A program made the position numbers and the translations under genes. Below are positions 12,106 to 14,415 of a DNA stretch of 64,000 nucleotides, piece after piece (position 1 is the stretch's first letter; each line of letters starts with the position of its first letter). The notes beneath the pieces are model-generated. The model was not told the origin of the DNA and ran no database searches. It worked only from the letters and a program-made list of their open reading frames with translations. The stretch is from Candidatus Gastranaerophilales bacterium (lineage in GTDB: Bacteria; Cyanobacteriota; Vampirovibrionia; Gastranaerophilales; Gastranaerophilaceae), in contig CALVEK010000001.1 of NCBI GenBank assembly GCA_944326555.1, positions 62,001-126,000 of the forward strand, written 5' to 3'.

Positions 12106-12177
12106 TGTATCCCTATTCTATCATAAATCAGACCTTAAAATTGTCAGCTTATAGTATTTATGTTTTAAGGTTAGTTA

Positions 12178-12206
12178 TTGACAATTTATGGACAAACGTC
12201 CATAAT
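12178..12206 (+). promoter_or_regulatory. Promoter with palindromic SOS-type operator, repressor gene
   Basis: A -35 box TTGACA (12178-12183) and a -10 box CATAAT (12201-12206) are 17 bases apart. A perfect inverted repeat fills the spacer and overlaps the -10: TTATGGAC (12186-12193), AAAC, GTCCATAA (12198-12205). The same arrangement, with GAC-N4-GTC cores, lies upstream of umuC. A repressor bound here would block RNA polymerase; autoregulation by the product of 12230-12805 is the natural reading. Confidence 0.85.
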
Positions 12207-12229
12207 AATTATAAAGGATTTTATTTGAT

Positions 12230-12805
12230 ATGTTAAGTGGAAAACAAAAAACTTTTTTTGAAAATCTAAAAAATGCTTACGGCAGAGAGCCTTTGCCAAG
12301 TTACGAAAAAATTGCTCAGGACTTTGGTTTTAAGCATAAAAATTCTGTTTGGCAGTATTTTAAAAAGTTAAAAGAATCCGATTTGATAAAAGAAAAAAAC
12401 GGAAAATTTTTTATCAATCCGGAATGCTTTGGCGCTATTCTTTTTACATCTTCAGTAAGAGCAGGTTTTGCTACCGTTGCGGAAGATTCTATTGAAAAAA
12501 GAGTTTCTTTGGATGAAAGTTTTGATTTGAATAACCCTTCCGTATTTATGTTTACCGTATCGGGAGATTCCATGGTGAATGCCGGCATATATGATGGTGA
12601 TAAAGTTATAGTAAAGAAAACACCTCAAGCTAAAGACGGTGATATTGTTCTTGCATTTGTAGATAACGGGTATACGCTAAAAACTTATCGCAATAAAAAC
12701 GGTAAAGTATGGTTGCAGCCAGAAAATCCCGATTACCCGATTATTGAACCCAAAGAAGTTCTAACTATTTTTGGTGTAGCCACAGGCATTAGCCGCAAGT
12801 TGTAA
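12230..12805 (+). CDS. LexA/UmuD-type self-cleaving SOS repressor (S24 family)
   Basis: A 191-residue protein. Residues 1-62 form a LexA-like winged helix (LSGKQKTFFENLKNAYGREP, then SYEKIAQDFGFKHKNSVWQY). Residues 72-190 are an S24 peptidase domain with the cleavage pair Ala78-Gly79, catalytic Ser114 (SGDSM) and Lys151 (GYTLK). The region after the cleavage site (RAGFATVAEDSIEKRVSLDE) resembles UmuD more than classic LexA. With umuC downstream, it could be the SOS repressor, a DNA-binding UmuD that also partners UmuC, or both. It has its own promoter-operator and is followed by 398 bases without a gene apart from the umuC leader. AAGGA lies about 12 bases before ATG 12230. Confidence 0.9.
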   Translation: MLSGKQKTFFENLKNAYGREPLPSYEKIAQDFGFKHKNSVWQYFKKLKESDLIKEKNGKFFINPECFGAILFTSSVRAGFATVAEDSIEKRVSLDESFDLNNPSVFMFTVSGDSMVNAGIYDGDKVIVKKTPQAKDGDIVLAFVDNGYTLKTYRNKNGKVWLQPENPDYPIIEPKEVLTIFGVATGISRKL

Positions 12806-12946
12806 TTTTTTTGATTCTAAGAATTAAAAATATCTCCAGTAAGGTATTTTTTAACAGCACTTGTAAAAAGGCAAAAAGCTGACAGGTGTTAAAAATTGCT
12901 GTAGATTCAACACTTTTTGGCAGTTTATACAAATTAAAAAAACATG

Positions 12947-12975
12947 TTGACATTTTATAGACAAATGTCTATAAT
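12947..12975 (+). promoter_or_regulatory. Promoter with the same palindromic operator, upstream of umuC
   Basis: Consensus promoter: TTGACA (12947-12952), a 17-base spacer, TATAAT (12970-12975). A perfect inverted repeat TTATAGAC (12955-12962), AAAT, GTCTATAA (12967-12974) fills the spacer and covers the -10. It shares the GAC-N4-GTC core and flanking TTAT/ATAA with the operator at 12186-12205, so both sites are probably bound by the same repressor. Transcription should start near 12982. Confidence 0.88.
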
Positions 12976-12981
12976 AACATC

Positions 12982-13170
12982 ATAAAGAAAAAACGATATC
13001 CTTCCTAATAATCAAAAACATGACGAAAGCGGGACGAATTTCTTCTTGTTAATTAGATTAGGTGTTCAAAGGTAAGTCATAGACAACTCGAGATATCGAA
13101 GTACAAATGACAATACCAAATTGAATTTAATTTTGCAGATCTCAACATGTCCGTCCCGCTTATTTTTTTT
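12982..13170 (+). ncRNA. Structured leader or small RNA ending in an intrinsic terminator
   Basis: Between the umuC promoter and umuC there is no gene, but clear RNA structure. A 10-bp perfect long-range stem AAGCGGGACG (13027-13036) / CGTCCCGCTT (13152-13161) is followed by A and eight T (13163-13170), as in an intrinsic terminator. Inside it, GGTAAGTCAT (13071-13080) pairs with ATGACAATACC (13107-13117) with a small internal loop. The loop of that hairpin holds GATATCG (13092-13098), which can pair with CGATATC (12994-13000) near the RNA 5' end, a possible pseudoknot. It would either make a separate ~190-nt SOS-induced RNA or act as an attenuator for umuC. The fold is inferred by eye. Confidence 0.6.
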
Positions 13171-13203
13171 CAAGATTGGATAAAACAAAAAGGCTAAAAA
13201 ACT

Positions 13204-14415
13204 ATGGCAGAAATTGCTCTTGTTGATTGTAATAATTTCTTTGTCTCTTGCGAGCAACTGATGAATCCCTCTCTTTTAAACAAAGCGGTGTGCGTTTTGA
13301 GTAACAATGACGGGTGTATTATTGCGCGTTCTAATGAAGCTAAAGAAATGGGAATCCCCATGGGGTATCCTTTGTTTAAGGCCCGCAAAGAGTTCAAAAA
13401 TGTTATTTATATTTCAAGAAACTTTGGATTGTATCACGATATCTCCAATAGAGTTATGCAAAAGCTGTTAAATTATACGCCTGATATCGAGCAGTATTCT
13501 ATAGATGAGGCTTTTATTGATTTAACGGGGTTAAAAAAATTGTACCGTTGTTCTTATGAACAGATAATCGAAAAAATAAAATACGAAATAGAAACAGAAA
13601 TCGGAGTACCTGTTTCTATAGGATTAGCAACCTCAAAAACTCTTGCAAAGTTGGCATGTGAAAAAGCTAAAAAGGATAAATTTTTAAACGGTACATGTAG
13701 AATCAGATACAGTGATATAGATGAAATTTTAAGAAAAACCTATATAGAAAATATTTGGGGTATAGGTAAAAATACTGCTGCACTGTTTCACAAATACGGG
13801 ATTTATAAGTGCAGTGAGATTGTTAAACAAAATGATTTCTGGCTCAAAAAAATTTGGGGTAAACGTGGAATTGAACTAAAGGCAGAGCTTTTGGGGCAAA
13901 GTGCTTATCCTGTTGTTAGCAAGGTAGTTCTGCCAAAGTCTATTCAAAAAACAAGTGCTTTTTCTCAATTTACAAGTGATAAAAATTACATAAAGGATTC
14001 ATTACATTACCATTCTCATCAGGTGTGTTCAAAATTACGCAATTTGGGACTTCAGGCAGAGGTTATTTGGGTGATGCTCAGAACAAAAGATTTTCGTGTT
14101 ATCACAGAAAAAATGGTTTTACCGGAACCGTCTGACAGTGAATTTTTGATAAATCAATTTGTCGATAGACTTTTTGATAAAATCTACGACTCTCAAATAA
14201 TTTATCGTTCTTCGGGGATTTTTGCCGATAAGTTGAGTGAGAAAGCCACCGCTCAGTTGTTTCTTTTTGAGGATGAAAAAACTCAAAAAGCTAAAAAGTT
14301 GGCAGAAATTTGGGACAATATTGAACAAAAATACGGTAAAAAATGTTTTTGTATAGGGACCATGAAAGATCCTCAGGAAGAAAGTAAATTACATGGACAA
14401 AATTATTTCTCTTAA
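13204..14415 (+). CDS. umuC: UmuC-type Y-family DNA polymerase (Pol V catalytic subunit)
   Basis: Error-prone translesion polymerase of the SOS response. The 403-residue product has MAEIALVDCNNFFVSCEQLM (first catalytic Asp), the UmuC signature CVLSNNDGCIIARSNEAKEM, the catalytic YSIDEAFIDL motif (about residues 97-106), then GIGKNTAALFHKYGI (helix-hairpin-helix) and a C-terminal little-finger region. Length is close to UmuC (about 420). The SNNDGC signature separates it from DinB. It is 33 bases downstream of the terminator-like leader and depends on read-through or an unseen promoter. A strong hairpin at 14480-14515 follows. Confidence 0.95.
   Translation: MAEIALVDCNNFFVSCEQLMNPSLLNKAVCVLSNNDGCIIARSNEAKEMGIPMGYPLFKARKEFKNVIYISRNFGLYHDISNRVMQKLLNYTPDIEQYSIDEAFIDLTGLKKLYRCSYEQIIEKIKYEIETEIGVPVSIGLATSKTLAKLACEKAKKDKFLNGTCRIRYSDIDEILRKTYIENIWGIGKNTAALFHKYGIYKCSEIVKQNDFWLKKIWGKRGIELKAELLGQSAYPVVSKVVLPKSIQKTSAFSQFTSDKNYIKDSLHYHSHQVCSKLRNLGLQAEVIWVMLRTKDFRVITEKMVLPEPSDSEFLINQFVDRLFDKIYDSQIIYRSSGIFADKLSEKATAQLFLFEDEKTQKAKKLAEIWDNIEQKYGKKCFCIGTMKDPQEESKLHGQNYFS

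Follow-up and report, generated by a model that had tools for sequence, protein, structure and literature searches.

Why should a structured, non-coding stretch that ends in a terminator separate an SOS-type promoter from umuC? The question is raised by a 64,000-nucleotide (nt) stretch of DNA from a Candidatus Gastranaerophilales bacterium (positions 62,001-126,000 of contig CALVEK010000001.1, GenBank assembly GCA_944326555.1; hereafter the window), part of a 2.08-Mb genome, in which the element considered here lies between a lexA-like repressor gene and a gene for a umuC-type Y-family polymerase. A preliminary description had offered two readings, a damage-induced small RNA (sRNA) or an attenuator through which umuC is made only after antitermination. 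The apparent leader attenuator of one genome turns into a lexA-associated RNA once relatives are compared. The first option gains support in that the element appears to be an SOS-promoted, terminated, and conserved non-coding RNA, and the safest statement is that it represents a conserved, lexA-linked, putatively SOS-controlled terminated RNA rather than a umuC-specific attenuator.

A blastn comparison of 23 species genomes of the window's genus showed conservation at the two ends of the region only, and in seven genomes, the window's own among them. As read from the loci, the element is larger than first described: AUCCUUCCUAAUA is followed by a terminator hairpin with a large loop, and throughout the genus ATCCTTCCTAAT plus such a terminator comes after either lexA or an SOS promoter. 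The exact 12-mer of this CU-rich motif occurs once per genome in 21 of the 23 genomes and nowhere else, and the other two (G006 and G014) carry variants at the same place. The element lies directly 3' of lexA in most species; in the clade that includes the window's genome (G000, G003, G006, G008, G014, and G018) it stands behind an SOS promoter of its own, with lexA ~1.8 kb upstream of the element plus umuC in G003 and a gene other than lexA upstream in G006. Related genera have equivalents. The element is kept without umuC downstream in G010, G075, and G101; in G010 and in two g19 genomes whose next genes code for a flagellin and a different enzyme, it follows lexA while umuC is elsewhere. 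Because the element persists where umuC lies elsewhere, it is probably not primarily a umuC attenuator.

The perfect 10-bp stem with A plus eight T that had been pointed out 33 nt before umuC is present in the sequence, and comparison of relatives bears it out as a terminator. Compensatory changes are found at five pairs of a 12-species alignment in which 92.5 per cent of cells are paired, and the covariation score, 0.358, compares with 0.160 for shuffled alignments (0 of 500), with slid versions of the stem reaching at most 0.18. The whole RNA also folds better than its shuffles (z -2.6), and a conserved seed of predicted accessibility together with a 3' end set by an intrinsic terminator is what would be expected of a base-pairing sRNA. 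The promoter described earlier likewise stands and is accompanied by a LexA-type palindrome. The pattern TRGACN4GTCYA, a predicted operator, overlaps the promoter at both lexA and the element, as would befit members of an SOS regulon; lexA's own box, TGGACAAACGTCCA at 12189-12202, is related to the element's TAGACAAATGTCTA.

The interior of the element fared differently. The 9-bp hairpin (13071-13080 with 13107-13117) exists, but it belongs to a private insert of ~70 nt that is absent from relatives and folds no better than shuffled sequence (p 0.29). The 7-nt match between its loop and the 5' end of the RNA, from which a pseudoknot had been proposed, falls in the same insert, and a match of at least 7 nt arises in 1.4 per cent of shuffles before the choice of segments is counted. 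We regard both the hairpin and the match as no more than incidental. No conserved, mutually exclusive antiterminator was found, the terminator stem alone being conserved and the inner helices lying within the insert, nor did the lexA-umuC transcript yield a conserved pairing partner for the CU motif. Comparison with Rfam 15 families gave no hit above the gathering score for the window region, nor any for 12940-13210 when E values up to 1 were allowed.

Conservation is family-wide and independent of umuC. When a LexA profile was run against named genomes, ~60 lexA loci from the order Gastranaerophilales were collected, and CU-rich sequence marked 30 of 34 lexA terminators against 0 of 85 other terminator-like hairpins of the same loci, a control set that includes some spurious hairpins. 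The motif takes one of two places, as CCUUCC on the 5' side of the stem or as CCUCCC within the loop, with both present in GWA2_34_9, and the loops are unusually large at lexA terminators and mostly short in the controls. In deeper relatives, with LexA up to ~62 per cent identical to that of the window, lexA and umuC abut without the element. A second conserved, AU-rich stretch (TATTCAAATA...TTTATTCTTC) was seen in g41-type genomes (L132-L157) ~10-40 nt after lexA, before the CU-loop terminator.

What might such an RNA act upon? A second conserved motif, UUUGCAGAU in the terminator loop, was used for a target search after scans for Shine-Dalgarno (SD) complements. Its complement (13-mer, one mismatch) was sought genome-wide in the six promoter-clade genomes, and a site in rsmH was the one non-self locus that recurred, in five of the six; the site is near the 3' end of rsmH, ~50 nt ahead of an ftsL-like gene. 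The loop of the window's own element pairs there, ~35-50 nt upstream of the ftsL start, over 18 continuous bp (16 Watson-Crick and 2 G-U; -25.4 kcal/mol), ranking first of 426 start regions, which were sampled as stretches totalling 464 kb. CAUGACG, a separate segment that occurs in some promoter-clade members only and was not used to find the site, ranks ftsL fourth of the 426. Joint folding with the target gains -15.1 kcal/mol, compared with -4.7 (standard deviation 2.8) for shuffled targets (0 of 100).

Loop and site also go together across the genus. The core UUGCAGAU of the loop seed, with a predicted unpaired probability of 0.73 in the window RNA, is common to the loop-positive members, and the anchor AUCUGCAAA is kept in all 17 loop-positive genomes and in none of the six loop-negative ones. 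The 17 use the codons A-TCT-GCA-AAA at the site (AGG-TCT-GCA-AAA in G006) where the six have TCG or TCA, and this is the only one of 196 rsmH columns with an invariant residue whose codon sets are disjoint; no other triple is fully codon-invariant among the 17 and yet variable among the six. Ranked by loop, the species' own junction stands between 1 and 82 of 424 in the 17 loop-positive species and is mostly poor in the loop-negative ones.

Four elements without UUUGCAGAU (those of G002, G013, G016, and G022; L031-L034) share another conserved loop, CUCAUGUCAAA; weak pairing of its CUCAUG with CAUGGG at the ftsL site is conceivable.

The sister genus g33 allowed a prediction. Its elements contain CCUUCCCAUGAC, predicted to pair with the ribosome-binding site of ftsL in the window's genus (GUCAUGGGAG), and when stretches of one g33 genome were searched until the rsmH-ftsL junction was found, the junction read CGTCATGGGAGAACTAAATTGAC, as predicted from CCUUCCCAUGAC. 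The AUCUGCAAA anchor is missing from this junction, just as the loop motif is missing from its element. The pairing extends over 10 bp and ranks fifth of 1,473 start regions sampled from ~75 per cent of the genome (-17.4 kcal/mol, z -3.4), whereas the reversed seed ranks this site 925th and the seed of the window's genus 774th. Complementarity to rsmH-ftsL is seen in two genera, via different segments. The best start region for the g33 seed is another gene, not ftsL, with a GGGAGGGG ribosome-binding site (-20.3 kcal/mol; L351, G111:C1:40001-60000).

Parts of the element match the start of a cell-division gene, and the RNA may therefore stop division during DNA repair. DNA damage would inactivate LexA and a small regulatory RNA would then be expressed, released from the lexA mRNA in most species and, in the window's clade, also made from its own LexA-controlled promoter as a stand-alone RNA of ~190 nt (~110-120 nt in relatives) that probably starts near position 12982. 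Ending at the intrinsic terminator, this RNA would expose its CU-rich 5' motif and large terminator loop and would pair in trans with rsmH-ftsL mRNA, through an anchor close to where rsmH ends, over the ribosome-binding site of ftsL, or both; less FtsL would be synthesized and division would be delayed during repair, with umuC made only from terminator readthrough. We put the chances at about even that an SOS-induced lexA 3' untranslated region (UTR) or stand-alone sRNA silences ftsL in this way. We advance a broader proposal more tentatively, as possible but short of even: that the SOS division checkpoint of the lineage is carried by the 3' end of lexA mRNA, a single transcript supplying both the repressor and an ftsL-silencing RNA, and that in the window's clade the RNA has gained independence from lexA through a LexA-controlled promoter of its own.

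Several observations weigh against ftsL silencing. The target was found by searching, and the matches in two genera represent few independent evolutionary events. Since the loop-negative genomes make up roughly one clade, a single event may account for the codon co-change, and with RSAKLR conserved as a protein motif, constraint on the protein keeps much of the rsmH match in place. In G006 the loop has a mismatch to the rsmH site, the main-clade CU motif does not single out ftsL, and scans for SD complements with 7- and 9-mers gave no conserved target. The ftsL-like gene is a weak assignment, made from a PF19579 match at E 4.5e-4, below the cut-off, plus its position after rsmH. Finally, Hfq (PF17209) was detected in 0 of 23 genomes of the genus compared with 5 of 14 in control rings, which is not the setting of an Hfq-dependent sRNA.

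It might instead be that an SOS-induced trans-acting sRNA has other targets, its CU motif serving as an anti-SD seed on several mRNAs or sequestering a pyrimidine-binding protein, and that the ftsL match is chance. An exposed CU-rich motif kept across all genera, shifting between the 5' side and the loop, would suit this explanation, as would the confinement of the rsmH-matching loop to part of one genus; yet the same SD scans found no conserved complements for it either, and in two genera two unrelated segments place ftsL very high in the ranking, so we hold it unlikely. Simple SD targeting was tried and rejected, TAGGAAGGA giving 21 matches near start codons across the genus and the reversed control 39, and GGGAGGA gave 68 matches near starts in g41, none common to more than two genomes.

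That the element is a plain lexA or operon terminator with no role in trans, conserved for termination and 3'-end stability, we consider improbable: the strong stem, the U-tract, and the position at the end of lexA all fit, but termination calls for no invariant unpaired 12-mer and no large CU-rich loop, the other hairpins of the same loci are mostly short-looped with none CU-rich, and the element gained its own SOS promoter. An attenuator whose terminator blocks umuC pending a specific antitermination signal that works on the structured leader is very improbable, for although the terminator lies between umuC and the only SOS promoter seen in the window, so that umuC needs readthrough there, and must lower readthrough wherever umuC lies downstream, the element is kept without umuC and the window's inner structure is private, with no conserved alternative pairing found. 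Features of the locus are collected in Table 1.

Table 1. Coordinates of the element and its flanking genes within the window.
Feature	Position	Strand	Remarks
lexA-like repressor gene	12230-12805	+	Peptidase_S24 C-terminus (Pfam PF00717, E 6e-26); N-terminal winged helix by resemblance
SOS-type promoter of element, TTGACA-17-TATAAT	12947-12975	+	12/12 to consensus; same layout drives lexA in relatives
LexA-type operator (predicted), TAGACAAATGTCTA	12958-12971	+	Palindrome overlapping promoter
Conserved unpaired CU-rich motif, AUCCUUCCUAAUA	12998-13010	+	Anti-Shine-Dalgarno-like; predicted unpaired probability 0.89
CAUGACG segment	13019-13025	+	Complementary to CGUCAUG at ftsL ribosome-binding site
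Terminator stem, 5' arm	13027-13036	+	Compensatory changes
Private insert (approximate)	13046-13116	+	Holds 9-bp hairpin and pseudoknot loop; absent from all relatives; not significantly structured
Loop seed, UUUAAUUUUGCAGAUCUC	13126-13143	+	Pairs with rsmH 3' end
Terminator stem, 3' arm	13152-13161	+	Compensatory changes
Intrinsic terminator U-tract, A plus eight T	13162-13170	+	Read in sequence
umuC-type Y-family polymerase gene	13204-14415	+	Pfam IMS, IMS_C, IMS_HHH; ATG at 13204; downstream of element, reached only by terminator readthrough

The LexA-like protein is the sole one found in the window's genome, and relatives have one match per genome. For the most part lexA appears to lack a leader, the same operator-promoter standing immediately 5' of the start codon; in most species of the order the TATAAT box ends ~6-9 nt before the ATG (loci L013-L035 and L077-L106). 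The window's clade differs in that lexA has a leader with a ribosome-binding site (12170-12232 in the window). A perfect LexA-type palindrome, TAGACTTTTGTCTA, also overlaps a promoter near position 1500 of L110 (G000:C22:27820-27833) and is the only other promoter-located exact match to the pattern in that genome besides those of lexA and the element; the gene that follows is DUF177/YceD-like, and next come genes that, read by eye, resemble rpmF and plsX. Two further candidates within the element were set aside, a short leader peptide (ATGACGAAA...) that by eye is open only in some promoter-clade members and is not conserved, and a match of loop TCAACATGT to the -35 context ACATGTTGA that is absent in G003 and G008.

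Control of division by RNA during the SOS response is known in detail for DinR of Klebsiella pneumoniae, an SOS-linked RNA with an experimentally proven action on ftsZ (PMC10907235). DinR is the closest analogue in that the mRNA of a division gene is the target, ftsZ there and, as a candidate, rsmH-ftsL here. The two differ in parentage, which here is lexA itself or a dedicated SOS promoter, and in lineage, Gastranaerophilales, with no Hfq detectable in the genus; no sequence relation was seen, and DinR is proven while the present element is known from its sequence. If the proposal is true, a lexA-linked RNA kept throughout an order of uncultured gut bacteria related to cyanobacteria, with ftsL complementarity in two genera, would mean that RNA checkpoints are a recurrent solution, and it would provide a target open to direct testing in a lineage where genetics hardly exists.

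The RepG sRNA of Helicobacter pylori acts with a C/U-rich terminator loop. In the present element, too, CU-rich sequence is exposed inside a large terminator loop or beside it, and RepG (PMC8295292) differs from it in target, trigger, and lineage. The proposed outcome, a delay of division during DNA damage, is shared with OxyS and with the SOS division inhibitors SulA, YneA, and SosA; however, OxyS is induced by oxidative stress, the other three are proteins, and none is linked to the 3' UTR of lexA itself. RNA regulation within the LexA regulon is likewise found in tisB/istR-1 and symE/symR, but these are toxin-linked antisense RNAs, and no toxin gene is seen at the present element.
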